A stretch of 64,000 bases of DNA from Hygrocybe punicea (Eukaryota > Basidiomycota > Agaricomycetes > Agaricales > Hygrophoraceae). The notes beneath the pieces are model-generated. The model was given only the letters and a program-made list of their open reading frames with translations. It was not told the DNA's origin and did not search any database. Location: contig OY744467.1 of the NCBI GenBank assembly GCA_963556145.1, forward strand, positions 3,782,001 through 3,846,000, in the 5' to 3' direction. The translations under genes and the position numbers were made by a program. Below, one piece after another: positions 9,667 through 56,708 of the stretch (the stretch's first letter is position 1; each line of letters starts with the position of its first letter).

Positions 9667-10712
9667 GTGCACAGGGTGGTTGTGGTTCTCGTGATGTCTG
9701 TATACTTTCTTTCCTAGGCTACTCTCGTCCGCACAGCCGTTAGTTCTTCATTCCACCACCGCTTGCTGTACGGAGACAGTTTGGTTGTTGGGATTACATT
9801 CGCTATTGCATATTGTAGTGCACTGTCCAGGTTGGCTAGGGCCTGGTGAAATTTTTCGACACTCTCGATTTCACTTGGTCCCTCTATTCCTGCCAGTTTC
9901 TCCCCCAGTACTTCCCAGAACTTTGTCCAATTGGCCTCCTCATATTTGGGCCTTGGTTTGAATCTGGACCCACGTACCATGATGTCGAGCGTATATGTTA
10001 TTGGGAAATGGTCTGATTTCGCTGGCCTGTCCTCGGGTCGCGTATCGCAAGTTATGAATTGGTCTAGGAGCATGCCAGTGCAGAATACATTGTCCACTCT
10101 TGTCATATTGCCAGTCGCCAGTGCTTGTAGTGTTGGAATCCCTTCCGGTAGTGCCATTCGCATGTTATGTTGCCCGATAAGTTCCAATAGTGTTGTGGCT
10201 GCTTCTAAATTGGCCGTAGTGAATAGGTGGGCATTTCTTTCCTTGTCCCATAGTGGATGGTGTCGGTTGAAGTCCCCCGCCCATATGTATTGTACTGGTC
10301 TGGTGGGTGCATTCCGTGCTGCTTGACTGTTCATATATTCTCCTGGCTTTGTCAGGGTGTCGTCGTTGGTGCAGTCAACATACGCATTGATGATTCGTAT
10401 AGTGCCAAGTGGCCCAATGAGCTGGACCACGGTCAGATCAGTGGCTGGTATAATTATGGGTGACCATGTATTAGAGTTGATCAATTTGCTGACGAGTATT
10501 ACTGATCTTGTCGGGTTGGTACTGTGTGTGTCGTGATGTCGGGGGGGGTATATAACGGTGTAGTATCCATTGGCCCTTGTGAGGCCTTTGAAGTCGAAGT
10601 GGGGCTCTTGTATTAGTATGAATGGGTGTTCTTTCTTTACGGCCTCGAGCATATCCAGCTGGGCTATTAGCAACTTATTTACATTTTGTTGCCATATGGA
10701 TACCTGCTCCAT
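9667..10712 (-). pseudogene. LINE ORF2, APE endonuclease half (broken)
   Basis: Open from 10712 to 9714 (332 aa), then a frameshift near 9718 restores the frame (SLGKKVYRHHENHNHPVHEEY) up to the fold-back insertion. APE/EEP endonuclease signatures are IWQQNVNK near the start, QEPHFD, WAGDFNRHHPLWD, a TRVDNVFC block and SDHFPI; these hold the catalytic E, D-N and D-H residues. In the family it nicks target DNA to prime reverse transcription. The layout matches the intact copy at 18399. Confidence 0.88.
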
Positions 10713-12724
10713 GCGTACAGGTCCTCAATTGACTGTGTGGATGGCATTTCCTGTCTACGTTGGCTTGGTGGCTCTGTGTCCGTCACGTTCGTGGGTGCTT
10801 GTCTCGCTGGCGGGGTGATGATGTATGCTGGACCCGTCAACAGTTCGTCTCCCCATCCTCCTGGTGTGGACGTCGGCCCAGGTTGTGTTCTCCAGATGTT
10901 GTCCAGGGTCTGTTGTGATGTCCTATTGCTACCCTGCCCTCCCTGACTTGCGCCGTGTTGCATTGACAGCGTTCGGAAGCCTGCTCCCCTTGTAAATCCA
11001 TGTCCCGAGTCTTGATTTTGTGCTGTCTTGGGGCCGCCTCAACCCATACTCCATCCCTGTCTGTTTCGAGTCTCTATGTTATATCCACCTTTTAAACTGT
11101 CGTGTGTGCCCCCTTCCCGTGGTCATTGTTCCTGTCTCCGTCCATCATTTCTCCACGCTTGGTCAAAGTTGCCCATTCGAGTGCCACCCTCATCTGCACG
11201 TCCCCATGTCCTGGGTTCATTTGTTGGAAACAGCCTATACTTCGCCTCCATGTTATACTCACTCATTTTCTTTACTCTTTCCTGGAATACCCTGCAGTTC
11301 CAGTCCACTGCACTGTGTCCCGTTTCTTTGCAGTTGATGCATTTGAGGGGTGTCCCTCCTTCCACTGCACAGTTGCGGTCGGATGTGCGATGCATTCCGG
11401 CGCACCTCGCGCATACATTGTGTATCGATTTGCACTCCTTTGCAATGTGTCCGAAGCCTTGACATTTCATACATCGACGTGGCTCTTGTAGTAGCTTCCT
11501 AGTCTGGCATTGTTTCCCTTCGATATACACTCCATATTCCAGAATGTGATTCGCAGTTTCCCGTGACGCAAGACCCAATATGAGAAACGTGTATTGCTGC
11601 CCTTCCACACGCAGATGTGCAGGTTTCAGCCATCTCGCTTCGCATATTGACATCTTCAGCAGTGCGCTATCTTGTTCAATTTTTTCGAGGGCCGCTTGTC
11701 TCTCTGGGTCGAGTGTTGTAGGGACATATTCCACTACTACTTGGCATAGCCCTGCCATCATCACGGACGCCCCGCCAAATTGGGATATGAATTCTTTCAT
11801 GACATCGCTCCTGCACATGTATCATGCTGCCTCCGTGGTGTTCAGTGAGTATATAATCGCGCCCGCCTGGGTACATCGTGCTCCAACGAATGTCATACCA
11901 TCTGGCTTGTCCGCCGCCATAATTCCCATCATGTCTAGTGCGAGCTTAGCCTTTTTGACCAGTTCTCTCTCAGTTAGCATTCCGAGCGTATCGTTCACTG
12001 ATTTTGGGTCTTTCTTGACTATAATCTGTCTGTCGACGATGTCTCCTCTTGAGATGGATGCTGCGTGTTCTGGGGGTATTGGTATGTGCATTCTGGCAGT
12101 GTTGGCGTATGATGTTGGCATTCCATTTCTGTTGTCGAGTTCCCGTGTTTCCCCGTCCTGGGCCGTCTGGAGTTGTAGCGCCACTGCCTTTGCCTCCTCC
12201 AGGCTCGATGTGACGCGATCGACGTCCGCGCGCAACTCCTCCATAGTTTTGGTTATTGACACCGCTGAGTTTCTTAGCGCCAGCTCGCATACCCCCATCT
12301 TGTCTTGTGTTTGCTCCATGCTTTCTGTAACTTGCGCTATCCTTGAGAAGACGGGATCCTCCAATTTGTTACATATTGTCTCAGCAATATTCCCTGCTAC
12401 ATCTTCCGTTCGAATGCTTTCCAGTATGAAGGCTACCGCTCTCAGGACGTTTGTGCATGATCTCGGCATTCTGGTCGTTGCGGCCGCCACTCTTAGTACG
12501 GCAATCGCTAGGGTCTGTGGAGTTATGGGCTCTCCGTTGATGATGTATGCCTCGTGTTCGAGTAGTATTTTTCCCTCCTCTGCATTGTGAACATCTGATG
12601 ATATACTACTTTCCTTGATTACTTCTGCTCTCGTGGGTCTCCGTGTCATATCCATACTGTCTGTATTTTCTGCTGGTCGTATTTGGCTTGGTGTTAGAGT
12701 ACCTGACTTGCCTTTTGGTGGCAT
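10713..12724 (-). pseudogene. LINE ORF1, gag-like with zinc knuckles (broken)
   Basis: Starts MPPKGKSGTLTPSQ at 12724 and runs open to a TGA at 11822-11824; the same frame resumes at once (YMCRSDVMKEF), so one in-frame TGA splits it. Downstream are three cysteine knuckles (CMKCQGFGHIAKEC, CARCAGMHRTSDRNC, CINCKETGHSAVDWNC) within 11123-11500, as in nucleic-acid-binding LINE ORF1 proteins. Further frame changes follow from about 11120 to 10700 in a low-complexity C-terminal tail. It overlaps the start of ORF2, as in the intact copy. Confidence 0.82.
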
Positions 12725-13630: not shown

Positions 13631-13869
13631 TGGAATATATAGTTGCAGTGGTTGTTGACCGCTAACTTATTTTATGTGGAATGAATTATATTTACCTCTC
13701 TCTGAGAGGGCTTTTATACTGCTAGCTAAACCTACTAGAAGTTTCTTGTGGTGAGTAGAATACATGCTGCGCTTCAGCATTATTCATTGGACAGGTGGGT
13801 TTGAGTTCCGGGGTCATGTGATATGGATTACTAATCCTTTCCGTGACTGTTCGGCCACTATTCCCAACA
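13631..13869 (-). repeat. Copia 5' LTR
   Basis: A 239-bp unit which in minus sense starts TGTTGGGAATAGTGG and ends ATATATTCCA, with TG...CA termini and the Copia-typical TGTTGG start. It is followed directly by a primer-binding-like site and gag. The partner LTR is not in the window; the downstream part has been lost. Confidence 0.7.
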
Positions 13870-13904
13870 TTGATCAGGTATCTATATCATTCTATACCAA
13901 AACA

Positions 13905-14032
13905 TAGTCTCGTCCCCAGACATTCTGAGTACACGTGATATGGCCCGGTGTATCCGATCAGAGTGTCAAATATTTTTGTCACGGTGTAGCTCAGAATGTC
14001 TGGTGTACTTCGATACAGTGGGTGTAGATAAG
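13905..14032. repeat. Left terminal inverted repeat
   Basis: Inverted match to 25570-25688, strongest over 13999-14032 (33 of 34 bases). It lies about 250 bp upstream of the DUF6589 reading frame and probably holds its promoter. Confidence 0.75.
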
Positions 14033-14283
14033 TAATGATGTAATAGTATCATGTAGATAACCTACCTTATCTTTCCAAAGTTATTCCGCTCCCCCTCGCT
14101 TCAGAACACCCTTTGTGCTAGCTGAAGCCCTCTCGGAGCCCTCTGACTACCTCTGAATCAATTATGAAAAGGCCTGGTCCCTTGCAAACACGTCCCTGAC
14201 ATGAGTCTGTCTCCGATCCACACCAGCGCCAGACACAATCTTACCAAGAGTTCCTGGACCGTGCTGGGGATTTATCTCTGAGG
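14033..14283. other. Leader of the DUF6589 gene
   Basis: Non-coding between the TIR and the first recognised DUF6589 frame. A short upstream exon could be hidden here; I could not place one. Confidence 0.4.
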
Positions 14284-16395
14284 GTGCTGGCTGTTCTGGA
14301 TTTCATGGAGACTCAAAACCTGAATTTACCACGGTTTCTGTGGGCTGTGAGCTGGAATGATGATGACTTGATCAAGCATTCTAATGTATGCTTTGCTCGG
14401 ACTGCTCTCATGGTTAGCGACCAGCTACTGGCGATCTTGAAGAACTGGCACTGCCCCCCTCATGCTCATGGTCTGGGAACAAGGACTAAGGCAGCCCGGA
14501 AGGCCATGACTGACTGGGCCCTCAATATGATCTGTGATACAATTGACGAAGAGATACAAACTATCAAGGAAGTGATGTCCCTGCCACTGGAGGACCTGTC
14601 TGAAGAGGCTTTGCTATCTATTTCCTGGGGTAACCTCATCTTGGAGGTCCAGGAACTGGCACCAACTCTGTGGAAACTTTTTCATCACGCCGCATGGACA
14701 GCCAAGCAAGATCTCCACAATACAATGAAAAGTCCTGATGCTGTATGCTCTGCGCTTACCATTCTGATGGCTGAATAAATGTAATCATTCAGGTTATCCT
14801 TACTATGGTCTCTATGTGTTCGCTTTCTCATTCCCATCATCACAACAAGGTCCCGAAGCTCCTGACAATCTACTTCAAGAGTTGTGGTCTTGCAGCAAAA
14901 GCTTTTGATACGCTACATGCTTTGGGCCTCACCATGAGCCAGAAATGGGCTTATGATACTATAGATCAACTTTCTGAACAGGTCCAGAATGACATGCTGG
15001 CCAACATCAACAATTATTGCTGGTTCGGGACACATGACAATATCAACCTACCGTTCAAAGTCTATGAGCAAAGGCTTGAAAATCAAAGCAATTTTGACAG
15101 TGGGACAGCAGCTACTGTTGTTGTCATCAAGGATCCTGCTGCTGCTTGTATATGACCTGACTATGCAACATTCCAGTGCCAATGAGCACTTGGCGCCAAC
15201 AACCCCATTTGCTACAAAGATCTACTCAAGCTGGAGCAAGCTGCCACCCCTTGAGTCTGGCAGCAAGCTGTCTTCCATGTTCTGTCTTTTTTACTTGGCT
15301 CACCTGACTTTGATTTTGCGACGTACAAACACAAGAAGGACAAACGACTCCAGCCTCCTTCTCCCCATCATCAACTCCCAATCAGCCCCACAACACACCA
15401 TAACAGAATATATGTTGAACACTGTTCATATCGAAGAGGCATCTTATGAGGGAAACAATTGTGTCCTCAAAGAATGGTGGTGACAACTTGGATTCACTTC
15501 CGAAGAACAACTCAAGGAGCTTGGTATGAAGTGGGTTCTGGTCTGGGTAGGTGACCAGCTCACAGTTGTGTGCATCCGTGGGCTCCAAAAGTTTTGCTGT
15601 ATGGACCTGAACTTGTTCGAATGACTCTCCTTCATCAAGACAGTCTCTGGCTGGTTTCACGCCCAGATCACTCTGGAGGCGTCATTACATAGCCAATACT
15701 ACGGTTCTCATGGCAGCTTTGGACTCCTACATGCTTTTGATCTTCTGAAGTGGAAAGGACTCCACGCACCTACTGTACAAGGTGATTTTCATTACCAGTT
15801 CCGAGACGCTCTGTACCAGATTGCCGAAGCACACTTCCGAGACCTCTGGTGCAAGGTCAGTGGAGTAGACAATCTAAAAGACTTACGACATCAAAATCAA
15901 TTGGAACTTCACGAAATCGCTGTCAATATTGTGAATGACTATGCTTCTAAGAATGCCTTATGACAAATGGCTGCACAGCGATCTCCAGACGAACTCCAAC
16001 ATCAAACAACCCAATTCCTATGCGACATACTTAATTACCTCAAATTTGATGATGCTATCAAGGTTGGCGATGTTGGTCGCATACAAGATATCCTTCCATG
16101 ACTCCTCTTTCACTTCGCTGGTGGAAAAAACAAGAACTACACTATAGAGATGCTCAAACTGCTTCAGGGATTACAACGAGAGTGGCCAGATGACCTAAAG
16201 TTGGTACTTGTTGTCGATTTTTGCCTTATTGATATTTTCTTCCAGGAGTTTTATTATTCAATATTGCTGGCTGGTGAATACAACGGGAAAACGCGATGGC
16301 TTCCTGCCGATTGACCTGCTGCAAGAGCACAACGTCAAGGATATCAAGGTGTGTTCAATCCTAGGTGCCATATGATTGACATTTTACCCACTGAC
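14284..16395 (+). pseudogene. DUF6589-family protein, 5' part (broken)
   Basis: The product resembles the basidiomycete DUF6589 family: an opening helical region (FMETQNLNLPRFLWAVSW), then HNKVPKLLTIYFKSCGL, the core TMSQKWAYDTIDQLSEQ, RPDYATFQCQ-like and WVLVWVGDQLT blocks, and the conserved tail (AIKVGDVGRIQDILP, LLFHFAGGKNKNYTIEMLKLLQGL). In-frame TGA codons lie at 15153, 15183, 15252, 15481, 15622, 15961 and 16099, each readable as decayed CGA, and the frame shifts near 15430. The family is highly repeated in agaricomycetes; its function is unknown to me. The last intron ends just before the LINE insertion. Confidence 0.75.
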
Positions 16396-16408
16396 AGTAC
16401 AGGTACAC
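16396..16408. repeat. LINE target-site duplication, left copy
   Basis: AGTACAGGTACAC at 16396-16408 recurs after the poly(A) at 22811-22822 (plus the preceding A, which is ambiguous with the tail). The perfect match marks a recent insertion at the start of a DUF6589 exon. Confidence 0.95.
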
Positions 16409-16562
16409 GGAGGTTCTTGTTCCTAAACCGCGTGGCACCCCTACTGGGACCCCGAAAAAGGAGCTCTGCGTATACAGGGCTATAGGCCTGCTATCCACAC
16501 TTCCCCATCCCAAATCTCCCCCTAAGTTTATCCATAAGCCCACCCCTAACAAAATCACAGAG

Positions 16563-18406
16563 ATGAGCCTCCGTAATTGGGCCACCCCCATCGCCGGCAC
16601 CTCGAAATCCAAAAAAGGCAAACAACCGCAAGCCAATACATCAACCCCCCAACCCACCAGAACCACCAGAACCTCGTCCAACATAGAAAACAACATCCCC
16701 AGCATCATTCTGGAAACCACTGAACCGGACACCCTCCAAGAAGCAGTCGACCACCTCCTCACCAACTCCCTCCTCCCCCCCGATCACGACTACAGTATAC
16801 CTACATTCACTGGAATCCTCTGACAACTGGCAGCTTCGGACAGCATTCACACCCTTCCCACAACGGCCACTACCCTCCGATCCATAGCCATAGCCTTAGA
16901 CTCAATAGATTTCGCCGCAAAATCTGACATACTCGCCAACTCCGTCGCCTCCGCCCTCAAATCTCAAACGGATGACATCCACGCATCAATCAAAATAGCT
17001 ATGGCTCCCATTCTAGATAGCATTTCTTCTAAAATCACTGACCTCCAATCTTGCCTTCTAGAAACGAGAGATCAACTCCAACAATCCACGGCGAGCCTCG
17101 TCAAAACCTCCACCTCGATCGAATCCACCACCTCCTCATACAAGGATGCAGTCCTCGCTCAAACTACACGGGCCCCCCTCAGCAACATAGACCCCCATAT
17201 CAAAGTGAAGGAACAACTACAAGCACGGCAAATCCTTCTCGACGTAAACGACTCCCCGGAAACCAAAAAAGCCCTGGACATCAGCCTCTCAAAACTCACG
17301 GAAAAGGCCAATCACGTGCCTAGCTCCACGACACCACCGTCCAACTACAATTCATGGCCACCACGAAGCTCAGAAACGGAGGCATACTACTAGAAGCGAA
17401 TTCCGACCAAATCCCCACCTGGTTACAAGACAACACCCGGCTCACCACATTCCTATCTACCTTCGGTCACGGAGCCTCCGTTAAGAGGCGAACTTACACT
17501 ATCATAGCTTACTTTGTCCCACTCATCTTCGATCCAGACGTGCCCGATCACCTCAGGGAAATTGAGGAAACCAACGAACTCCCCCCGCACTCCATCATCC
17601 GCGCAAACTGGATCAAACCGAAAGAACGTCGCTCAGCAAACCAGACATGCGGTCCCGCCATATTCTCCCTGGACTCACCCGACACCGCTAATCTAGTTCT
17701 TTCCAAAGGTTTCTTTGTATGCCACAAGAGAATCAACACCGGCAAATGCAAAAAGGAACCCCTCCGCTGCCTCCGTTGCCATCAATGGAACCATACCGCA
17801 TCCCGCTGTCCAGCCGACTTCGACACATGCGGCACTTGTGGCAACCAACACAGAACGTCGAACTGTTGCAACAAAAATCAACCCTTCTGTACGCCCTGCA
17901 AACAAAAGGGTCACACCACATGGGACCGTAACTGCCCCTCTTTCCTACTAAAATGCAAAGAAACAGATGCCCGCAACCCCGAAAACTTACTACCTTTCTA
18001 CCCCACAGCCGAGCCATGGACCCAAAACCCCTCTCATCCCTATGCCCCCACACCATCCTCCGTTAACGCCCGACCACCACACACAATTCCGCCCAGACTA
18101 CACTCCCCATTCCCCCTCCCCCTGCTGTCCCCAGCTTCCTGCCACTACTCTCCACCCCCCTCCATCTTCGACCAGCCTCCTCCCCCCTCGATCCGAAATC
18201 GTCGTAACGGATCCAGACCCCCCCTACGCCAATCCACTCTAAATATCACCAACCCGCCTCTCAGCCAAAACACCGCCCCCTCCGCCCCTCTTTCCTGGTT
18301 CGACGACACAACGCCTCTCCCCCCCCTTCCCCCCACCCCCATACCCCCCAACGACATCCACGCAATCAGCATACCTCCTCCCACAGCACCGTCGCCTCAT
18401 GCCTGA
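16563..18406 (+). pseudogene. LINE ORF1, gag-like with zinc knuckles (nearly intact)
   Basis: Starts MSLRNWATPIAGTSK at 16563. One TGA (16821-16823) breaks it, the same frame then continuing to about 17345, where a one-base frameshift leads into the frame that ends at 18406. The C-terminal part holds three CCHC-type knuckles (CLRCHQWNHTASRC, CGTCGNQHRTSNC, CTPCKQKGHTTWDRNC) and a proline-rich tail. Such proteins bind the element RNA. The final TGA overlaps the ORF2 start: ATGCCTGA at 18399-18406 serves both, which suggests stop-restart translation of ORF2. With only two lesions, this copy was disabled recently or moved by help from another copy. Confidence 0.85.
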
Positions 18407-21400
18407 ACAACCTGCTCCGCATCCTGTACACTTAAACATCTGGCAGATTAACCTCAACAAATCAGCGAAAGCACACTGGGACCTCATCAATTCCATGATA
18501 CACACCAAATGCGACCTCCTTCTACTACAAGAACCATACTTCGACTATTACGGCAACACCAAAGCCACCCACAATTGGAGAGTAATCTACCCTTCTGACC
18601 GTCTCACTTCCAACACGCCAGTCCATTCCGTCATCCTAGTCAACGTCAGACTTAACACAAACTCGTGGGAACAAATAAACATCCACGGCTCCAACGACCT
18701 TACGGGCATTCGCGTCAAAGGACCCCTAGGCAACCTCGCCCTCTTCAACATCTACAACGATTGCCTCCATTCCAACACCCTTGATACTCTGCACCTATTC
18801 GCCAGGACACATGAAGCATCCTTACATCGTCGCGAGAACGACCACATGTTTTGGTGTGGCGACTTCAACAGACATCACCCACTCTGGGACGAGGAACGTA
18901 ACCACCATCTTTTCACCGCCAACGCCCTCGCCCAAGCCCGTCACCTCATAGAAGCTACTGCTGACTGTGATATAACGATGGCACTACCTAAGGACCTACC
19001 CACCCTCGAATCCATGGTCACAAAAAACTGGACCAGAACCGATAACGTGTTCTGCACAGCGAAATCCACCCACCTCATTTCCGTCTGCGACACCAAACCA
19101 GAACTTCGGCCCACAGGCACTGACCACATCCCCATCCTAACTGCCATTGCTCTCCCCCCCCAGATAAAAACCAACCCCCCTACACGCAACTTCCGCCTAG
19201 TCAATTGGGACAACTTCAGGGATCAACTCAACACCCACCTGTCTCACCTTCCCCCGCCCACACAAATCACCTCACAGATACAGCTCGACAATGCCATTTC
19301 AGGCCTCACTACGGCCATACAATCATCCATCGAGTTTGCGATTCCCCTTTCGGCCCCCTGTCCCCATTCAAAGCGTTGGTGGACCCCACACCTGAACCAG
19401 CTTAAACGAAACAAAAACAGGCTAAGTCGTCTATCATACAAATTTCGCCTAGACAACACTCACCCAAGCCATAAAGAACATAAAACGGCACGTAATCACT
19501 ATGGTGCCGAAATCCTAAAAGCCAAAGAAAGACACTGGGCCGCATTTCTCGATGACGCTAAGGACCACAACATTTGGACCATAAACAAATGCATATCGAA
19601 TCCCATAAGCGACTACCCCAGAGGAGACGGCGGCAAATCAGCCATCCCCACTTTAGAGTACACCCTCCCAAGCGGCCTGACAGCATACGCCACTTCCAAC
19701 GAGGATAAAAGCCTCGCTATAGCTAAATCATTCTTTCCCCCGCCACCCTCACACTCCTCCGTGCCACCCAATTATAACTACCCTCCCCGCATACCGTTCA
19801 CAGTGGAAATATCCCGTGATCAGATCAAAGAACACATCGGCAAGGTCCAACCCCACAAGGTACCAGGCCCAGACAGCATCCCTAATATCGTACTAAAAGA
19901 ATCAGCCGATCTACTCGTCGATCGCATCCACCCCATCTTCAATGCGATACTCCGCCTCAAAATCTACCACGACCCGTGGAAAGATTCCATCACCAGGGCG
20001 CTACGTAAACCGGGCAAACCCAGATACGATATACCCAAAGCATACCGTCCCATAGTTCTACTCAACACCCTCCCGAAACTGCTGACTTCTATCGCTGCAG
20101 AAATCATCTCCCACATGGTAGATGAACACCATCTCCTGCCTGCCCACCACTTTGGAGGTCGACCGGGCCACACCACGACAGACTCGATGCACGTTCTAAT
20201 TCACCGCATCAAACACGCCTGGCGCAACAAACGAGTCGCGGCAATCCTATTTGTAGATATCGAATGTGCCTTCCCCAACGCAGTAACGGACCGACTACTC
20301 CACAACATGCGCAAGAGAAAGATACCCGAACATCTTGTCTGTCTAGTCGGCAACCTCCTCAAGGATCACACCACGCGCCTCACCTTCGACGACTACATCT
20401 CCGACCCTATCCTCCTCGCCAATGGCATAGGACAAGGGGACCCGATTTCGATTATTATATACCTCTTCTACAACGCTGACCTAATCGAAATCCCCACAGG
20501 TCGCCAGGAACTGGCAGTAGCCTTCGTCGACGATGTAGCTTACTACGTAGAGGGCAAGGACTTCGCTGAAACCAACCAAATCCTCAAGAAGCTCATGTCG
20601 AAACCTGGGGGAGCATATTCATGGTCCAAAGAGCACAATTCCAAATTCGAAATCAGCAAATTCGCACTAATAGACTTTTCACAGCGCACCGATACGCCAA
20701 GACCACCACTAATCCTAAACAACACAGCCATCTCGCCAGTCAAGTCTCACCGCTTCCTCGGCATCATCTTGGACCAGCACCTTCGCTGGCACGAACAACG
20801 GGAAAATGCCATCGCGAAGACTACCAAATGGCTACACCTCTTCCGAAGAATCGCACGTCCCAAATCCGGCATACCCAGAAAACTCATGCGTCAACTTTAC
20901 ACCTCAGTGGCAATCCCAAAGATGATATATGCCGCAGACGTTTGGTACACACTGGTACATAGAATCGCCAATAACGCTCACAGACACGGGTCAGTAAGAG
21001 CGATGCGGGAACTAACCAAGACCCAACACATAGCATCGATACCCATCACTGGGGCCCTCAGAACGACACCCAACGACCTCCTCGACCTCCACGCCGGCCT
21101 GCTCCCTGTAGACCTCCTCATGCACAAAGCATGCCACAGATCAATCATCCGACTATCGACATTACCTATCTCACACCCGCTTCACAACCCACTTAGAAAA
21201 TGCGCCAGACACTTAGTCGCCAAACACAGATCCCCACTCCACACTCTCACCCACCTCTTTGACATCAACCCTGACCACATAGAACCCATCCGTTTCCCCA
21301 CTTCCTCCTCCCATCACCCCCCAGCCTTCAATGCAATTATCCCCCCTTCCAGAGAAGAATCCATCACATTCCACAACATCGATGACGCCGACATCAAGAT

Positions 21401-22334
21401 ATACTCTGATGGCTCGACCCTCGACGATGGCGTAGGGGCAGCAGCTGTACTGTACCGCACTGGAAGATCCCGGCCTAAAGTCCTCCATTACCACCTGGGC
21501 TCCAGCACGGACCACCACAATGTCGAAGCAGAAAACGTAGCCAGCCTACTTGCCCTACAGTTGCTTAGCCGCGAATCTCGTTTACGCTCCACCTCCATAT
21601 ACATCGACTGTCAGCCCACCATAAACGCGCTAATCACACCCTACACGAAATCCGGGCAACACATCCTCGACACCTCCCGTGCCCTCGCGCGGCGCCTGGT
21701 CGACACTAATCAACACCTCACCATCACTCTCAGATGGATCTCGGGGCACGAAGGGGTAGTTGGGAATGAGAGAGCCGACTCCGAAGCTAAGAAAGCAGCG
21801 AGAAACGACCCCAGTCCACGTCGTACATTACCGGTCGCCCTCCGCAGCGGCACCCTCCCTTCTAACACATCGGCCATCAAACTCACATTCAGCAGACACC
21901 TCACAAACCTCTGGCGTGAGGAATGGCACCAGTCACCACGCTTCGTACGCTTCTCCCGCATTGACCCTGACTTCCCTTTACGCAATTTCCTTAAATCCGC
22001 TGACAATCTAACACGACCGCAGACAAGCCTCCTCACCCAGCTACGCACTAACCACATCCCCCTTAATGCTTACCTACACAGAATCAACAGATCCGACACC
22101 AACGCCTGCCCCAAATGCGAAATGGCCATCGAGACCGTCCAGCACTTCCTCTTCGAATGTCCTGCCTACTTCCACGCGCGGCACAAGCTCACCAACACAC
22201 TCAGGAACCAAGCCTGTTCTCTCTCACACCTCCTCAACGACCCCAGAGGCATTCAAGAACTCATCAAATTCATACGAAGCACAGGACGATTAAAAGCCTC
22301 ATTCGGTGACCTCACCTCCCCCATGCTCACATAA
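18399..22334 (+). CDS. LINE ORF2: endonuclease, reverse transcriptase, RNase H
   Basis: 1311 aa, uninterrupted. Domains: APE endonuclease at about 8-250 (QEPYFD, WCGDFNRHHPLWD, TDHIPI), reverse transcriptase at about 480-750 with the A motif FVDIECAFPN, B motif GIGQGDPIS and C motif AFVDDVAYY (FVDD in place of the usual YxDD), RNase H at about 1000-1130 (YSDGSTLDDG, EAENVASLLAL, YIDCQ, GHEGVVGNERADSEA) and a C-terminal CCHC finger (CPKCEMAIETVQHFLFEC). It nicks target DNA and copies its own RNA at the nick. The start overlaps the ORF1 stop. All catalytic residues appear present, so the enzyme may be active. Confidence 0.95.
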   Translation: MPEQPAPHPVHLNIWQINLNKSAKAHWDLINSMIHTKCDLLLLQEPYFDYYGNTKATHNWRVIYPSDRLTSNTPVHSVILVNVRLNTNSWEQINIHGSNDLTGIRVKGPLGNLALFNIYNDCLHSNTLDTLHLFARTHEASLHRRENDHMFWCGDFNRHHPLWDEERNHHLFTANALAQARHLIEATADCDITMALPKDLPTLESMVTKNWTRTDNVFCTAKSTHLISVCDTKPELRPTGTDHIPILTAIALPPQIKTNPPTRNFRLVNWDNFRDQLNTHLSHLPPPTQITSQIQLDNAISGLTTAIQSSIEFAIPLSAPCPHSKRWWTPHLNQLKRNKNRLSRLSYKFRLDNTHPSHKEHKTARNHYGAEILKAKERHWAAFLDDAKDHNIWTINKCISNPISDYPRGDGGKSAIPTLEYTLPSGLTAYATSNEDKSLAIAKSFFPPPPSHSSVPPNYNYPPRIPFTVEISRDQIKEHIGKVQPHKVPGPDSIPNIVLKESADLLVDRIHPIFNAILRLKIYHDPWKDSITRALRKPGKPRYDIPKAYRPIVLLNTLPKLLTSIAAEIISHMVDEHHLLPAHHFGGRPGHTTTDSMHVLIHRIKHAWRNKRVAAILFVDIECAFPNAVTDRLLHNMRKRKIPEHLVCLVGNLLKDHTTRLTFDDYISDPILLANGIGQGDPISIIIYLFYNADLIEIPTGRQELAVAFVDDVAYYVEGKDFAETNQILKKLMSKPGGAYSWSKEHNSKFEISKFALIDFSQRTDTPRPPLILNNTAISPVKSHRFLGIILDQHLRWHEQRENAIAKTTKWLHLFRRIARPKSGIPRKLMRQLYTSVAIPKMIYAADVWYTLVHRIANNAHRHGSVRAMRELTKTQHIASIPITGALRTTPNDLLDLHAGLLPVDLLMHKACHRSIIRLSTLPISHPLHNPLRKCARHLVAKHRSPLHTLTHLFDINPDHIEPIRFPTSSSHHPPAFNAIIPPSREESITFHNIDDADIKIYSDGSTLDDGVGAAAVLYRTGRSRPKVLHYHLGSSTDHHNVEAENVASLLALQLLSRESRLRSTSIYIDCQPTINALITPYTKSGQHILDTSRALARRLVDTNQHLTITLRWISGHEGVVGNERADSEAKKAARNDPSPRRTLPVALRSGTLPSNTSAIKLTFSRHLTNLWREEWHQSPRFVRFSRIDPDFPLRNFLKSADNLTRPQTSLLTQLRTNHIPLNAYLHRINRSDTNACPKCEMAIETVQHFLFECPAYFHARHKLTNTLRNQACSLSHLLNDPRGIQELIKFIRSTGRLKASFGDLTSPMLT

Positions 22335-22810
22335 CTAACACACTCTTACACAGCATACCTCTCTCTCCCCGCTCGTCCACGTTGGGACATCTCCCTGTCA
22401 CACGCACGCTTAACAAAATCGCAATAAGCACCCGACCCACCGCCCGCATAACCTCTCACCCTCGACCACTCACCCGGCTATCCTTTCTTTTTTTTACTTT
22501 TCTCCCTGTGACAGCCCCCTCCGTGCATGTCTGCCCAGGCGGCCGAGCACTTAGCTCGTCTAGACCACCTGTACTCCACCACCCCGCTCTAGACATTGGG
22601 CCCCCTCACACGTCAGGTCAGGCGTTTAAAACAGCATGGACATGCTGGGACCATGGGGGACTTATTCCGTCATGGTTGCACTCGCAAACCAGAGGCACAG
22701 GTTCCGGGAAGGCTCTCGTATTTGTATATACTCTTGCCCATGTACGTAAGGTCCGACATAGGGCTCGCCCTGAGGGACAATAATATGACTTAAAAAAAAA
22801 AAAAAAAAAA
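22335..22810 (+). other. LINE 3' untranslated region and A-tail
   Basis: Non-coding 3' region ending in a tail of about 19 A at 22792-22810. The stretch is C-rich and shows no gene. Confidence 0.85.
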
Positions 22811-22822
22811 GTACAGGTACAC

Positions 22823-23178
22823 CTTTGCTACAACCGGACCTTTTGCTGATTGGGAGTACATTGGAAAGATATAAGCATCAATTCCATGTCAGCGCAAAGT
22901 TAAGAATCATGTTGAAGACGAAATCAATCACTTCCATCGAGGTAAATCACACACATCGCCTGACAAAGAACTTGATGTACGGCGACTACAAGAGTCCTAC
23001 AATTCATCTGAAGTTCATGTTTATAAACCGGGGCAGAAACTGGATGGGAAGGAGAGGTGTGTGGACATAGAAGGCTTAGGTTCTGATGCAACGAAGCTAT
23101 GCTGCACCATTGAGAACTGGTGAGCAAATCAAGTAACAGAGTGGTCCTTGGAGGAGGACTGGACAATGTATTGAATTC
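22823..23178 (+). pseudogene. DUF6589-family protein, 3' part (broken)
   Basis: Continues the frame broken by the LINE: FATTGPFADWEYIGKI, then a TAA, then NHFHRGKSHTSPDKELDV and VHVYKPGQKLDGKERC with DIEGLGSDATKL, the typical C-terminal end of DUF6589 proteins. A further TGA follows TGG near 23121, again readable as CGA. The frame ends near 23176, about 190 bp from the convergent RecQ stop. Confidence 0.72.
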
Positions 23179-23368
23179 TATTCATGCACTGCTTTAAAAC
23201 AACAGTGTTTTTTTACTTCGAAAAGCTACATTGAATGTATGGATACGGGGGAAGAAACTGAGGACTAGGATTCGGCAAGAAGACATTGGGGATGGAGCAG
23301 GGTGGTTGTATTGGTCTGAGCACAGGCTGGTTCAACGCTCTTGCCGCATTTCACTGTGCTGTTGCCAC

Positions 23369-25484
23369 TCACGATTGTGCCAGCTGTTCTTCGTACCGCT
23401 TCTTCTGATTTTCTTCGGTGACCTTCGCCTTCTTTGCCCTTCTCTCCACCTTCTGCCATTCATTTTCATCATTCCACTCTTCGTCAATCGGTGCAATTAC
23501 CTCAAGGATTGCTTGGGCATATTTATCCAACCATATCCAGCTTGGAAGATCCTCTTGGATGTCGGCTAGTGTTTTGAGATATGCTCGGCTCGCCAACTTC
23601 GTCAAAATGTTATCGGGGAGGATGCTTTCGATATCAAAGGTACAGTCGAGGAAGTCTCTATTCCAAATTTTATTCCGCCATTCAATAAGCACTTGGCAGC
23701 ACTTTTCCAGACATTTGGCACGACATGAACCTAAGCCGCAAGGGTGCTTCATTGTTGTTCGAGGTGCAGACGGTTGCTGTTCGTGGTCGGGGGTGCCCAC
23801 TGTCATTTGTACATTGTCATCGTGAACTTGAGGCGCTGTTCTGGAGTTCAAACAGTGAATAAATGTAAGGGACCCTTGCCTGTTCTTCGACAGACAGCTC
23901 ATTTGGATGCTCTTTGGCCTTCTTTAGGACACACAAGTTGCAACAAGGGACGATAAGCGCCGGTCCACCATCAGGTCCTTGAAAGTATGCCTTCTCCACA
24001 GCATGGTGACAATCAACAATTGGTGCCTCGACCCATTTACGCATACCACCCTTGACCTTCTTGGTATAGCATATATCGGCACTATGTGTGTTGGTATCTG
24101 CAGATTCATCATTCTGGTCTGCTGCATTGTCGTCGTCTTGTCCACTATTTTGGTTCTTGTTATTGTCTTTGCGAAGTTGATAGACTGATGGTTCGACTAG
24201 TAAAATTGCCTGTCCTGGATCACCATTTCGTCTAACTCGGCCATAACGCTGCACCCAAACTGAGAGTGATGATGGGACCATAAATCCTACAACCTGAGCA
24301 ATGTCCGGTATATCCATACCCTATAGGGGTGTCATTAGTGACATTAAGGCATTGGATATGATGCATACCATGCCAGCAGCCTCAGTTGCACATAAAATTG
24401 ATGTCTTTCCATCTCTAAAGTCTCTCATTGCCTTGCGTTTTGCGCGATTTGAATGCCCTGCATGCATAAAATTGACCTGGGACGTGAGCTCAGGAGGCAA
24501 CAAACTTTTGAGGTGTTTTGAAGTTTTGTATGCGAGATCGCAACTATTGACAAAGATGATCGTGTGCACAAGGGAAGCACCAGAAAGGTGCTCATTGATT
24601 GTGAAATTGATTGCATCGAGGTCAGTTGCAGCACCACACATCCAACAAACAATCGGTGTAATGTTTGGCCAGTTGTTACCCAAATTGACCATGTGTGTCC
24701 TCTTCACATTAAAACAGAGCGATTGCTGCACGTCAGAAAGAATATGAGGTGGTAATGTTGCCGACACAGCTAGGAATGGGACCGAGACGGGGAAAAGCGA
24801 TCGTAGCTTGCCAAGCTCAGAGAATTTTTTGCAGAACTTGTCACCCCAGTGGGAAATGCAATGAGATTCGTCGAAGACTGCACTGACAAACTTTTTTGTG
24901 AAGTTGGGTGACCGGAACAGTGAAGAGAATCTCGGATGTTCGAGACACATCTCTGGAGACATTACAAGGACTTGAAATTGGTCATTCTGGATGTCCTGAA
25001 GGGTTGAATGTCAGTGCTAGGGAAAAAACACTAGATTGGGATGCACTTTGTGAAGTTGAGTGTTATAATTGTATGCATTGACAGCCGTTGCGGTAAGGCC
25101 CATTTCCTGGAACTTTTGAGCCTGGGTATGATTGTTACAAGCTAATACCACACCGGGGAGGATTCAACTTACTCGTTCCACCTCCAGCTCATTTAAAGGA
25201 GATATAATCAAGACCTTTTTGGTTTTGGTCCTGTCCACAAGCAAGGGCATGACAAACGGCATCGTTTTGCCGGCACCCGTCCCTGCAATCACAATACAGT
25301 CGAGTCCCAGTAAAATCGCTTCGGTAATGTCTATCTGCCATTTGTGAGGAATTTTTCCGGGGCATGCTTGCTTGAATTTGTCGATGACGGCATTGCGCGT
25401 CACTTCCGAGTTGTATTTTCTGGTAAGAAAGGCGGCAGAACGTTCTGTTTGAAGGATGGAAGGCGTTCCACTTTCGGAATCCAT
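23369..25484 (-). CDS. RecQ-type DNA helicase in TIR element
   Basis: About 680 aa in at least five exons: 25484-25173, 25121-25032, 24995-24369, 24320 to about 23860, and the last ending at 23369. The first three exons are exact multiples of three and introns are short. Motifs: Walker A AGTGAGKT, DESH box (RecQ form of DEAH), AVSATLPP (motif III), TIIFVNS (IV), ATEAAGMGMDIPDI (V) and QRYGRVRRNGDPG (VI, arginine finger kept). Cysteines after motif VI (DCHHAV...PCCNLC) resemble the RecQ zinc-binding subdomain. No HRDC domain is evident. RecQ enzymes unwind DNA 3' to 5'. The last splice is uncertain: the simplest junction meets a TGA near 23817. Unlike its DUF6589 partner, it is not littered with stops. 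Confidence 0.82.
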
Positions 25485-25569
25485 GAAGGAAGGGGTGGAA
25501 GGGTCAAAAAAGCACTCGGGGTGGGGGCAGTATGGAGGACTTGTGCACTAGTTATCTCATTACATAAGT

Positions 25570-25688
25570 CTTATCTACACCCACTGTATCAAAGTACACC
25601 AGACTATCGAGGGAGGAGCACTGCAAGAAAATTTGACACTCCGACCCGGACATCTCGGTCCGACTTCATAGTCAGGCTTGCGAGACTA
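25570..25688. repeat. Right terminal inverted repeat
   Basis: Inverted counterpart of 13905-14032 (33 of 34 over the inner block). It starts 86 bp upstream of the RecQ start codon, so it probably serves as its promoter region. Confidence 0.75.
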
Positions 25689-25750
25689 ACCTGTTTTGCC
25701 GATGTCGCGTCATCCTTTTCGCCAGCAATTAGTCTATTTAAGTTCACTTA

Positions 25751-46100: not shown

Positions 46101-49100
46101 GAAAAGTATAGGCCTGGTAAAGTAAGTCTTGAAATACCAAGCTGGATTGTATCTGAATCACAGCAGGCGAACATGCTTCAAGCGGATCTTGGACTATCCC
46201 TTGCAAATGGATTACTGATTCTACCTGCGGGACTCCCAGGATACGAGGCATCAAATTCTGGCAGAGTCGGTGATAATATCGGTGCTTGTATTTCAATCCT
46301 CATTCCCGAACTGCAAGTCCAACTTCGGCTACACGATTATTTCATGGGTAAGTACTTGATGCTGAAGGCCGGATGCAGGTTGATGAATGGAAAATCCAGA
46401 AATGTCATTAAATATTGACTCTGCGTCTGGGCGTATTGATCAATCTCATCCTGAGGAACTGTCGCACGCACATTCTGGGAATTTCAGCTTAAAGGAGACC
46501 ATTTTGATTGATGGCAAGACGATCTAGTCGCACCGTGAAAATTCTCATAACCTTTAATCTAGGCATCGATATCACTGCAAACAGGTTGTTTGGACCCCAG
46601 CCACGCACAGCAACTTATGTGTGCATTTGGGCAGTTCACATTGGCCATGTCAAAACTCTCCTGCTGCCTTCTGCCGGCAGAATGCTTCTGGCCACATACA
46701 ATGCTTTCCGCCTCAACTTCACAGATCCTTTAAATGCGCCATCGCCTGATTACATTCCAGTCGTCGACCCAGATAGTGAGTGAATAATGCTTTAGGGCAG
46801 GAGCAAACCTTACCTCCCCCTCCCCCTCCCCCTCCCCCTCCCCCTCCCCCTCCTTTCGATGTTCACACAGTTACATTCGTCAAGTGTTCGGTTGCGGCCC
46901 TTGACGCTACCTGGCAAGCAGGACATGCAGCTTTAGAGATATCATTTTCACGGGGTTTGAAGTTCGAAAGTAATAATTTAGGTGGCAAGTTTCATCAAAC
47001 AGTTGCTAGCTTGCGACTGCCTCATGCCTCGGTGAAAATGTATCTATCCGCCGATACTCAACATCCCACATGGGTGGAGGCTGCCGAGTTCTTGACAGAT
47101 GCCTATCTCGACATCTATTCCTCTCCTTCAGAGGGGATGGACAAGGCACACACACAATCAGAATTTGTTCGAACACAAGATGCACCGACAGGTCGGGCTG
47201 AACGAATATTTGACAGCTTAGCATTTAGTAAGTAATTGATGAGTGTCTCCATTCGCTATCTGACCGCAATAATAGGACGCCCTCTTCACATGAATGGTTT
47301 GTTCTTGCCTCAACCGCAACTATTCTATCCCGCAGTTCTTGGCGAGGTAGTCTCCAGGTCCACGTCTCTCTTTTCGCCAACTGTACGAACATCATCCAGA
47401 CTACATCCCCGGTCGCTAATTTCACATTCATCCGAATCTGAAGGCGGTGAAGGCGTTTCCGAGGCACGTCGTGATGCTTATTTAGCGTAAGGAATATCCT
47501 CAAACCTCATACATCCATCATCAATCGTAACCAACGTGATCTCCACTTCAGAAAGACACGATCAACAGCACCAATGGTTCCATCGGTAGATGACGATAAC
47601 CAGAGCATGTCCAGTGGAGACGAATCAGATGATGAGGATTTGACGGACGCTTGCATTTCAGAGAACGAGTGGTCGGATTTCGTACAAGGTAGGTGTCACA
47701 AGACTCACTTGAGAATGACAACGTAATCGGGCACCAGACACTTACGGAGATGGTTGGTCATCGCTCTTGGTACGGTACTCTCATTCAACGAGGCAGTACA
47801 AGGCCCCATTTCTTGCAGTCCCTTCACAATGGGATGGAACACCCTTTCTTCTCACCCGGGTATGTCAGGATCAAGCCGCATGAGTCCACTCTTTCCTAAC
47901 TGATGAATGACAGGATTGCGGATATTCGACTCCCATAATGGGACGGTTACGTTCAACAGATGCCAGGGGAAATATCTTGGCCACTAACTCAATAATCCGT
48001 CATTTTGGAGGTGGAACGTCTTCGATAGTGTGCCGCCTCCAGTCTCGCCAAGGTCTCGAGCTGAGAGTAACACCTCTCGTCCTACCTGTGGCAACTATTT
48101 TTGCAGAGGATATTAGTACGAGTGTGAGTATTGACTTTCCGGCTCCTTTGGGTTCTGGAAATGATGGGGATATGGTTTATAGCTCCTCAGTCCTGAACTG
48201 TCTTTAGATGCTATCGTAGAGGCTTATCTCAGCAACCTTTCAGATACTCCAAAACAATCCATTACTTTTCAGGTTGCCCTCTCATCTGTGCGGATTCGTA
48301 TCCTTCACTACGTTCCCATCATAGTGGAAGATGGCCCATTATGTTTGCCGGTGGTCTCTGAACATTGTCAGCACGACGTAACTGCTACAATCGACATCGT
48401 TTCCGACAGCTGTCGCCTGGTCTGGTCCAGCACGGATAGGAACTCATCTTCATATGCCAATATGACCTTGTGCACTTCGTTTCATGGCGCGTCAGTAAAC
48501 CTAGACATAGCCTCTGACAAGCGACAAGGCGCAAACTTGGAGGCTAATGTTTTTCGGTTAGATATTGATCAATTGCGAAGTAGATTTCTCTCCGACAAAC
48601 TCGACATAACGTGCGATGCCATTTGTATGGAGCTAGACCATAGGGGTCCAGAAATCATCACCGTCACCAGCATAACTCTTGCTCGAAAACAACGGGACTT
48701 GTTGCGCATATACAAAAAATTTATGGCAGATGCTGCTGTGTTCAAGGGAAATATGATTTACAATATTTTGAAGTCTTCCAGCCACAAGGCCATTGTCGAT
48801 CCGCTCTCAACAATTCAACCTTCGTATCTCGTACAGAGCGGTCGTCCACACCAGCTTCGCACAGACGACACCTTCAGGTTCTTATTCCACCTTCGTAACT
48901 GTCTATGGCATCTGGACGACTGCGAGCGTCGGGATTTTTTCTCATCGAAGAATTACACGGCGTCGGTTACTGCGGAAGATGCAGTGCCATTGTTGGAGTC
49001 TCGGCTGATAAGTTTAACATTGGACAAGGACTCTTCCAAGATCACTGATATGGCTGCGCTGGGGATATCATTTCCGTATCACCAAACTTCCATGGACCGG

Positions 49101-52100
49101 CAACCATCAAAGAGCTCTCCCAATTTTGCAGTGTCGATACATTTGAAAATGATCAAGCTTTTGGTCAGGGATCCACCGGGTGGATCATCTACGCAACTGA
49201 TTTTGGCACCATTGATTGTTGCTGCTTGTCTTCAAACTCTCGAGTGGCTGCCTTCGCCTCCTCCTCAGGTTACGCTCTCTCAAACATCACTGCGCGACCA
49301 AGAACGATCGAAAATTCAACGGATAATCGCTTCAATCTCTGTGATGGACGTCGACTGGATTGTTTCCCCCCATCTGATGCCCTTTGCGCAGCAAATATTG
49401 CGTGTGCGCCGACACTACTGTAATTCAAACAGCTCCGAAGGATGCTCAATAGCAGACGATGAAAGTGTCATGTCGAAGGCTGTCGAGACGACGTCGTTTC
49501 ATGTCACATCTTCATTATCTCGCCTCCACATCCAAGCAGCTGCTGAAAACTTGATTTTCGAGTTCAGAGTGTCAAACGCGCGATCAGCATCCACCTTGTT
49601 GTTAAGGCCGGCTCTGGGTTCTCAAAGTCAACGCGACCAAACAGCAAACGTTTCAGTACTGTTCGATGAAATCTTTCTTCGAGCGTGTTCGCCTGGTGAT
49701 TCCACCAAACACAACGAGCACGACATCCTTGCATCTCTTGTTTTCAATGGAGGGACAGCCAATGCTGTCCTGCGACAGGAACTATCGTCGAATGCCATAG
49801 TGCGGGTTGTGCTGACAACAGAAAACCTGCGTTTCAATGTCCCACGCAGCGCCCTCCGCCTTTACCGGTTTATTGAAGAATGGAGAGAAGACTTTCTCCC
49901 CGGTATCGAAACGACGATGAGGGCATTACTCTCAGAGATTCAGATGGCCCCAGCCCAGACGCTTTCACCATCTCCTCGTTCAATGCAACGCCCACCCATA
50001 TTTCAAGTTCACGCGTCTATCACAACCTTCGGAATCGCCTTACAAGTTATGCATGGTACTTGGCTTTCATGGGACGTGTATGGTACGGCGGTGTTCCTAC
50101 GATCATCAACTACACCGGCATGTACTGGTGACTTTGTACAACACTTCGGATTGCAATTAGCCTCACAAACTTTCAGTATCTCGTCGAAGGCAGGCACCTC
50201 ACACCACGCGGCTCCAAGTACTCGAATGAAGCTCAATCTACCGACGCTCTCAGCCTCAGGACTGTATCGTGGATCGCGCATTCAAATCATTTCTTTGGTG
50301 GACTTTTTCCAAGTTAAAGTAAAACCTTCACACTGGGACACCCTTCTGGTTGTACAACAGAAATTTGGACAGGACTTCAATGACCTCATGACCTTAGTAG
50401 AGGAAACACGTCACCGTCAGCGATCTATCTCATTCACCAGGCCTCCACCGCCACGAAAATCGTTGAAGTATTGTGGATCTTTGAAGATGAGAGGATTTCG
50501 CATTGGCATGGAAGGAATCTCCTCCGTAATATACTTGGAGTGCAAAGATATCCGTGGCGGTGTCGAACAAGATGCTCACCGCATATGGAATATCCAGTTC
50601 TCTGACCTGGGCCTCTCCTTGACTCCTCGCGCCACAATCACCTCACAAGATTTCGGTACACGCAGAAGTCATCGTTCAGCCTTTGTGATTATCGATTTCC
50701 ACACAAGCGCCGGAACCCGATGTTCTCGCATATCTGACAGCGAACTCCTTCACATATCGGTGACGAAAATCCATGCTGTCATGCAACCTAGTTCCATCGG
50801 AGAAGTGGGCGATTTCATTGACCAAATGCAGGTATGTCCACTCTCCTACTTACCCGACCCACGGCCAAAATTTGTTCATGTTGTTATTGCTTTCAGTGTG
50901 AGGTCTTCGACCGGAAAGAGCAAAGAGTCCTTGAACTCGCGGCTTTCAAAGAGAAGACGAAGAGCGTCATGAGGACATTTGAGATCAATGTCAAGGATAC
51001 CACACTCGAAGAAATCAACCCGACATGGTTTAGTAATTACATCATAAACCTCTCTGTCCGAAATATCGGCGTAGCATTCCCCCTTACCCTGAATCAAGAT
51101 CTCCAATTGCCACAATGGGAAAATCGAGACTCCAGCGCAGTCCGTGCATTCCTATTCTCAATCAAATCAATCGATTTTGATACTCAACGCGACGAAGGTG
51201 GTCAAGCAGTGATGAAGAGATTTTCTTTCCAATTTGTGGCTCGGTAACTTTTGGCCTTATTGGTTGTGAAACACCAACTGATCCCAGGCAGGTTCAGGCA
51301 GTCTGTTCCGGCTGATTTTTCAGGGGAAAACCATCAGACCAGGAATCGTCTGGTTTATCCAGAGATGACTGCACGAATGCGATCCAACCGGTCACCTACT
51401 TCACGGCAAATTAGGATCGGAGCAAATGTAAACGGTTTCATGTTGGACCTGGATTCGACTGTTCCCGATTACATCTTCTCCTTGATTGATGTCTATCATC
51501 AAGGTCAAGAACGTGTGGCTAGATTAACTGCCACTCTTCCTCGCAATTCGCCCATTGTTGGCTCCAAAATTCGAGTTGAAACAATGGATGCGCCCAAGCA
51601 ATACGCCATGTTGACCTCGTCCAACGTCCTCGCTTCGCTGACCTTTCTCAGTGGTAAAGTTCGCGTGTACAGCGGTGCCGCATCAGCTTTGTCGAAAGCA
51701 TGGTTCCAATCACATACTGTTCGCGAACCTCCAGATGAGGAATTTGGAGCCGAGATTTTTAACTTGCCCGTTGTCTCTGTTTGGAGCGAATACCGTGCCG
51801 CCTTTACTTCACACAACATTGGTAGTGGCGATGAGGCGAAGCCGACCATATTGATGTTCAAGAGTACGGTACATTCCAGTCAGAACTCATTGAGGCCAAT
51901 CTTGCTACCGTTCCTTACTGAGCTGGTCAGCCAAATCGACGCGCGCATGCGAAGAATGAGTTCGCGAAACGAACCCTTTCAATTGAAGAGCGACCAACGG
52001 CTCCCTTCAATAGTTGGGAGTGATGGCAATCCTATCGGCGATGCGGTGTTCAGCATGCAGATTAGCTTCAGCCTGCGTATAGATCAATCAAGACTGGAAT

Positions 52101-55748: not shown

Positions 55749-56708
55749 AACGAGTACATCGAGGAACACATCAAGCGACACGGGCGACGGTTAGATCATT
55801 ATGAACGAAAGTCCGTCTTCGCACATTGTCGACCGTGCATTTTAACATGTATCCTTCAGACGGAAACGTGAAGCACGCGCAGTGCACAGCGCGTCTGCGA
55901 CGGCACAGAAAGCATTTGGTTTAAGAGCGAAGCTGTTGCATGCAAAACGCCATTCTGACAAAGTACAGCTCAAGAAGACGCTCAAGGCACACGACGAACG
56001 CAACGTGAAGCAGGCGGCGGACTCGAGTGTGCCAGAGGGTGCACTGCCGACGTACCTGCTTGACCGGGAGGGGCAGAAGGACGCGAAGGCGCTCTCGTCG
56101 GCAATCAAGCAGAAACGGAAGGATAAGGTTGCGAAGTACGCTGTCCCGCTGCCGCGAGTGCGGGGGATCGCGGAGGATGAGATGTTCAAGGTTGTGAAGA
56201 CGGGGAAGAGCAAGAGCAAGTCGTGGAAACGGATGGTGACCAAGGCGACATTTGTGGGGGAGGCGTTCACGAGAAAGCCTGTCAAGATGGAGAGATTTAT
56301 ACGACCGATGGCGCTACGGTACAAAAAGGCAAATGTGACGCATCGTAAGTGGCGAACAATAACTATCTTTTTGTCCTTTTTTTTGTTTTGTTTTTTGAGT
56401 AATGTCCTGATGTTGTGTGCATCAGCGGACTTGAAGGCGACTTTTCAGTTACAGATTCTTGGGGTGAAGAAGAATCCACAGTCACCGATGTACACACAAC
56501 TTGGGGTCATGACGAAGGGAACGGTGATTGAGGTGAATGTTTCCGAGCTGGGGATGGTGACGACTGGGGGGAAAGTGGTGTTTGGAAAGTATGCTCAAAT
56601 CACGAATAACCCAGAGAATGACGGTTGTATTAACGCTGTGCTGCGTATGTCTTTTTTCTCGTTGTATTTTACAATGGCATACTGACTTTGGGGATTTTAG
56701 TTGTATAA
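55749..56708 (+). CDS. NSA2: Nsa2-family 60S ribosome biogenesis factor (first codons not found)
   Basis: Exons 55749-55810, 55860-56344, 56426-56644 and 56701-56708 total 774 nt, 257 aa from [20 protein letters not shown] to the end VLLV; homologues add only about three residues (MPQ) before this. Signatures are [52 protein letters not shown] and [18 protein letters not shown] (eS8-like beta-barrel part). Nsa2 acts in nucleolar maturation of pre-60S particles near the peptidyl transferase centre. The acceptor at 55748 implies a tiny first exon; CCCCAG/GT at 55684-55691 would fit the splice, but the preceding ATG (55677) is out of phase. Confidence 0.9.

Follow-up and report, generated by a model that had tools for sequence, protein, structure and literature searches.

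A decayed, very probably AcademH-type DNA transposon in Hygrocybe punicea, with DUF6589 as the likely transposase and a convergent RecQ-like helicase gene

Introduction

AcademH, a kind of transposon within the Academ superfamily, was reportedly described by Kojima in 2020, in Mobile DNA 11:15. The subject of the present work is the segment 13905-25688 of a 64,000-nucleotide stretch of Hygrocybe punicea DNA (contig OY744467.1, positions 3,782,001 to 3,846,000, forward strand; hereafter the window), which is very probably the decayed remnant of a cut-and-paste DNA transposon of AcademH type, with two convergent genes, one for a DUF6589 protein and the other for a RecQ-like helicase. AcademH is already described as a kind; what is new here is the likely identity of its transposase, DUF6589, together with the copy number of the element in this genome and the strength of the pairing between its genes.

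A passage of PMC10045372 gives target-site duplications (TSDs) of 9 or 10 bp for AcademH and of 3 or 4 bp for AcademX, and links the difference to the presence of a helicase or a nuclease, respectively. AcademH has been reported in fungi and is called low-copy in a section of PMC10799480 that also names KolobokH and Helitron as encoding helicases; it is cited in the reference lists of PMC8290104, PMC12210899 and PMC9970103. Other basidiomycete transposons with accessory genes are KDZ and Plavaka, for which part of PMC12730594 lists TSDs of 8 bp (Zisupton) and 2-3 bp (Plavaka).

Results

Recurrence of the DUF6589-RecQ pair

The search of the window's own genome (92.2 Mb, 42 contigs) yielded 103 matches to the DUF6589 family and 91 to the RecQ core of the window; since the best candidates alone were scored, these counts are lower bounds and absences are soft. 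The matches cluster into at least 70 DUF6589 loci and at least 76 RecQ loci. A RecQ match lies within 12 kb of DUF6589 at 57 of the 70 loci, in convergent orientation at 54 and in the same orientation at three, against about 1.4 neighbours expected by chance according to our arithmetic. Two DUF6589 clusters share a single RecQ partner, and one cluster covers two adjacent elements. Such recurrence was the first thing that an earlier reading of the letters (the first-pass annotation) had proposed to look for. From the 48 compact convergent pairs, 21 (the first 20 of the list plus L041, the closest relative of the window copy) were examined as 10-kb loci; inverted repeats bracket the gene pair in 13 of them, and also in the window.

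Borders of the mobile unit

At both ends of the window copy (13905 and 25688) the outermost sequence is TAGTCTCG. Two pairs of inverted-repeat blocks lie further inwards (Table 1), the inner one of 35 nt and 97% complementary, the outer one of 21 nt and 86% complementary, so the gapped inverted repeats noticed at first pass are real. The right end was used as a query against the same genome, with query bases 209-210 corresponding to window positions 25688/25689. Ten of the 38 non-self matches reach precisely this point and then end; three of these ten have identical flanks and represent one insertion. Among the remaining matches, one overshoots by four bases (to query base 213), 12 are purely flank and 15 are internal pieces. 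On the left, 13905 is also the exact first base of two other copies, and L041 begins at 13909. The borders of the segment 13905-25688 are those of a mobile unit, and those drawn at first pass are correct to the base, being shared by other copies.

A high-copy repeat occupies 13705-13869 of the window and stops 35 bp short of the element's left end. When the flanks of the window copy (13890-13904 and 25689-25703) are joined, they form a short inverted repeat, CAAAACA-ACC-TGTTTTG, with 7-bp arms. A 1.33-kb derivative that is also without a TSD gives TTGGTG-caacgt-CACCAA, with 6-bp arms. Spotted post hoc, such flank inverted repeats occur in 0.5% (window, 7 bp) and 2.2% (derivative, 6 bp) of random pairs; perhaps an inversion after insertion turned the TSD around, which is one guess.

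Target-site duplications and unoccupied sites

An exact 9-bp TSD stands beside matching YAG termini in 10 of the 21 examined loci. When the termini were fixed as TAG...CTA, exact 9-bp duplications were present in 8 of 22 sequences (the 21 loci and the window), duplications of 7 bp in three, and of 8, 10, 11 or 12 bp in none. In L023 and L035, exact 9-bp duplications adjoin CAGGCTCC / CAGGCTCCTACC termini; a 10-bp candidate in L023 was rejected as an internal palindrome. Two further cases belong to the window's own subfamily: a derivative at C2:2049874-2053303, in which GTCTTGACT is present twice as an exact 9-bp TSD, and a copy at C7:5729553 with the 9-bp duplication AATGGCACG/AATGGCATG, which carries one C/T difference.

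Unoccupied sites were sought for the 10 insertions that have exact duplications, with a query that joined two flanks of 100 bases each, the left one closing with the 9 bp. Element-free matches running through the junction, at 88-99%, were found for five of them (L021, L023, L024, L038 and L039), so that the empty sites called for at first pass do exist. Two of these unoccupied sites were read letter by letter and contain one copy of the 9 bp each; because they hold a single copy, the element ends and the duplication length are fixed for those insertions. Excision scars were considered at two sites with 8-9 extra bases (C1:8791784 and C34:4495838) and dropped, given that each has a single TSD copy.

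DUF6589 and its conserved acidic residues

In the numbering of the L006 frame, used throughout, all 13 aligned DUF6589 copies, some with as little as 19% identity to the first, have D107 and D277 (G/N-D-Q/L context); D423 and D450 are likewise invariant. A glutamate encoded by the next exon, in the setting DLLQEHN, DLNIEHL or DWVQEFH, is found in 41 of 42 entries, the exception being a K; nine entries are loci taken twice, so that by our count the residue is present in 32 of 33 distinct loci. The scan for this glutamate used six seeds from the same loci, and L014 scored 37 against a shuffled maximum of 35. D107, D277 and the glutamate of the next exon are likely the catalytic residues, with D423 and D450 still candidates. 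The window copy keeps the presumed catalytic codons (D at 15036-15038, D at 15553-15555 and E at 16325-16327).

The Pfam match to DUF6589 begins at residue 166, downstream of D107. That the model starts after the first conserved aspartate helps explain why its likely role has gone unrecognised. Uncharacterised animal proteins may carry similar motifs. A look for relatives in viral contigs gave 56 pattern matches, of which none was confirmed. A literature search with two terms, confined to one collection of papers, found no mention of 'DUF6589'; the term 'PF20231' turned up solely in a paper on optics that has no bearing on the subject.

Joint evolution of the two genes

Distances were compared across 22 pairs (the 21 loci and the window; 229 comparisons). 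Those of DUF6589 and RecQ are correlated with r = 0.96, a value reached by none of 9999 permutations, and the nearest neighbour agrees between the two genes in 21 of the 22 pairs. In six comparisons with synonymous divergence (dS) near or above 1, the ratio of nonsynonymous to synonymous change (omega) is 0.03-0.11 for DUF6589 and 0.08-0.18 for RecQ segments, values that are rough because such a dS is near saturation. In five recent comparisons (dS <0.3), omega ranges between 0.13 and 0.77 for DUF6589, and between 0.12 and 0.77 for RecQ. This pattern reads as that of genes that transposition maintains and that escape constraint once inserted.

The window copy and its derivatives

The features of the window copy are collected in Table 1. 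The two genes lie tail to tail with stops about 195 bp apart, in the convergent orientation given at first pass. The DUF6589 gene is a pseudogene, given its many TGA codons and a frame shift. The core exons of the RecQ-like gene are open, and match TIGR00614 with E 7.5e-24, under the curated cut-off of that model.

Table 1. Coordinates of the element in the window and of the features within it
Feature	Position	Strand	Remarks
Left terminal region	13905..14044	+	Terminus TAGTCTCG; inverted-repeat blocks 13958-13978 (outer, pairs with 25624-25644) and 13998-14032 (inner, pairs with 25570-25604)
DUF6589 gene, putative DDE transposase, pseudogene	14200..23174	+	Frame broken by TGA codons and a shift; split by the LINE; start approximate
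Nested LINE	16409..22810	+	Zinc-knuckle open reading frame (ORF) 17324-18403; endonuclease/reverse transcriptase/RNase H ORF 18243-22334; poly-A end
RecQ-like superfamily 2 helicase gene	23369..25484	-	Several exons, core open
Right terminal region	25559..25688	-	Terminus TAGTCTCG when read inwards; inverted-repeat blocks 25570-25604 (inner) and 25624-25644 (outer)

The segment had been said to enclose exactly two genes, a claim that overlooked a long interspersed nuclear element (LINE) of 6.4 kb sitting within the DUF6589 gene. The LINE encodes endonuclease, reverse transcriptase and RNase H in one ORF of 1363 aa and is flanked by a 12-bp TSD, GTACAGGTACAC, with copies at 16397-16408 and 22811-22822. 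L041, which is 95% identical to the window copy, aligns up to 16408 and resumes at 22812; the LINE, missing from it, is thus a later insertion into the transposon. TGA stops, a frameshift and the later LINE have all disrupted its DUF6589 frame, and the window copy is dead.

Of the 244 differences between the window copy and L041, transitions account for 217, and changes of the CpG to TpG/CpA type for 137. CpG stands at 0.45 for the DUF6589 part and at 0.70 for the RecQ part, the former being the more depleted, and the TGA stops are what CpG decay would make of CGA codons. CGA codons are somewhat commoner in DUF6589 exons than in RecQ in three of five intact pairs and not in the other two; with an excess in just three, CGA content explains little of the contrast between the two genes. 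The first-pass annotation had noticed this contrast of an open helicase and a broken DUF6589, to which a frameshift can be added beside the TGA stops. Selection as its cause is not borne out: omega of the window RecQ core against L041 is 0.77, with no sign of selection since these two copies parted, and the open RecQ of the window is therefore no sign of host use.

Several copies are derivatives. One internally deleted form exists in three copies (C7:1105144-1106519, C41:1571765-1573144 and C7:6778207-6779593, with left ends inferred); it retains both termini and part of RecQ, of which a piece is inverted, and has no DUF6589 match. Since their flanks are identical, the three go back to one insertion that was copied along with a larger repeat around it. 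The derivative at C2:2049874-2053303, of 3.4 kb, retains both termini and the RecQ region, with DUF6589 mostly gone. Finally, L032 (2698-7433) and a copy on C40 (L042, L004, L043) have 4739 bp in common at 98.8% identity, a stretch that begins inside DUF6589, finishes inside RecQ and is without terminal repeats.

Elsewhere in the window, a further LINE endonuclease ORF (Exo_endo_phos_2; 9717-10724, minus strand) adjoins the element. On the plus strand there are two long open frames of 929 and 1025 aa (48183-50969 and 51248-54322) with no Pfam match, and a gene of the Ribosomal protein S8e family (55846-56682).

Discussion

Taken together, the pairing, the shared borders, the TSDs and the unoccupied sites support the reading, first offered from the letters alone, of a two-gene transposon with DUF6589 as its transposase; DUF6589 is likely the transposase of AcademH. 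The first-pass annotation had named two outcomes that would refute it, no recurrent pairing and borders that do not coincide, and both checks came out in its favour. In the mechanism that we propose, the DUF6589 protein would be a transposase of the D,D,E kind. It would bind the terminal inverted repeats, which start with YAG (here TAGTCTCG), excise the element and join it to the target, and strand cuts 9 bp apart would give rise to the 9-bp TSD. The RecQ-like helicase may act with the transposase at the ends or during repair of the joints.

Several observations weigh against this interpretation. No TSD with matching termini was found in 11 of the 21 examined loci, nor at the window copy, whose flanks are ACCAAAACA / ACCTGTTTT; the 9 or 10 bp expected of AcademH are thus seen at 10 of the 21 loci and not at the window copy. 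When the scan was run without fixed termini, 9 bp was not prominent (for lengths from 6 to 12 bp the pairs numbered 51, 20, 7, 6, 1, 0 and 0). In 8 of the 21 loci no bracketing inverted repeat was detected. At 13 of the 70 DUF6589 loci a RecQ match is missing from the surrounding 12 kb, at three it lies in the same orientation, and 20 of the 76 RecQ clusters are unpaired. A search of PDB sequences with the DUF6589 alignment returned nothing up to E = 1, and Pfam models applied to the 13 DUF6589 copies gave no transposase family besides DUF6589 itself, with one stray weak match.

The assignment to AcademH rests on the terminal repeats, the helicase and the TSD length, the element having been set beside AcademH by description only, and we regard it as highly probable on that footing. 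The DUF6589-RecQ unit could instead be a separate superfamily that resembles AcademH in layout and TSD length only, which we consider unlikely. The likeness is one of description, and the DUF6589 lineages at the far end share no more than 19-27% identity with the first sequence, which speaks for a separate superfamily; but the combination of a helicase, terminal repeats and a 9-bp TSD is what AcademH is described as having, and we know of no other described superfamily that combines these three. The relevant passage of PMC10045372 supplies the published description with which they fit. A stronger version, in which the unit is its own superfamily with an obligatory helicase, the two genes have co-diverged to below 20% identity and DUF6589 is a new DDE branch outside Academ, seems to us improbable to the same degree.

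A slightly smaller chance is left to the possibility that RecQ was captured from the host and rides as a passenger between the repeats, with no role in transposition. An arrangement lacking RecQ seems possible, as 13 of the 70 DUF6589 loci have no match to it nearby, and some copies, such as that at C2:2049874-2053303, keep RecQ with DUF6589 mostly gone. These absences are soft, however, with only the best candidates scored, and a passenger would not readily account for convergence in 54 of the 57 neighbouring cases, for gene trees that run parallel even between deep lineages (r = 0.96, with 21 of 22 nearest neighbours in agreement) or for a RecQ omega as low as that of DUF6589 in the old comparisons. 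Because the two genes diverge in lockstep under similar purifying selection, RecQ appears to be a standing partner of DUF6589. Of the two roles left open by the first-pass annotation, that of helper is favoured over that of passenger by this correlation, the nearest-neighbour agreement and the omega values of 0.03-0.18.

It is very improbable that the element is a KolobokH or some other DNA transposon with a helicase, among them Helitron. Kolobok targets TTAA and Helitrons are not known to make a TSD, whereas the TSDs here are 9 bp long and of varied sequence, and the helicase is RecQ-like (TIGR00614); what the element shares with KolobokH is being a DNA transposon with a helicase, which Helitrons encode as well according to a section of PMC10799480. 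That the segment is a segmental duplication or a set of chance neighbours, as might be said from the missing TSD of the window copy and from the 4739 bp that L032 and the C40 copy share without terminal repeats, is next to impossible to hold against a border at 25688 that coincides in 10 other places, the 9-bp TSDs and the unoccupied sites.

If the AcademH interpretation holds, the DUF6589 family of Pfam, still listed without an assigned function, gains a likely job, as the transposase of AcademH elements. With at least 70 loci that fall into several deep lineages, and with open frames and unoccupied sites as well, this genome is good material for studying the role of RecQ in cut-and-paste transposition. 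For annotation, it means that many RecQ-like genes in such a genome would be transposon genes, not host repair genes.

Compared with known systems, the element differs from KDZ and Plavaka in the length of its TSDs, 9 bp against 8 or 2-3 bp, and its DUF6589 protein matches no Pfam transposase family. AcademX, of the same superfamily as AcademH, is described in part of PMC10045372 with a nuclease and TSDs of 3-4 bp; the 9-bp TSDs of our element, and a helicase in the place of the nuclease, set it apart from AcademX. From AcademH itself the element departs in two respects: the section of PMC10799480 concerned calls AcademH low-copy, against at least 70 DUF6589 loci in this genome, and the exact TSDs found here are all of 9 bp, none of 10. 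The likeness to AcademH lies in the terminal inverted repeats, in a helicase beside the transposase and in 9-bp TSDs, which fall within the 9 or 10 bp that the passage of PMC10045372 gives for AcademH.

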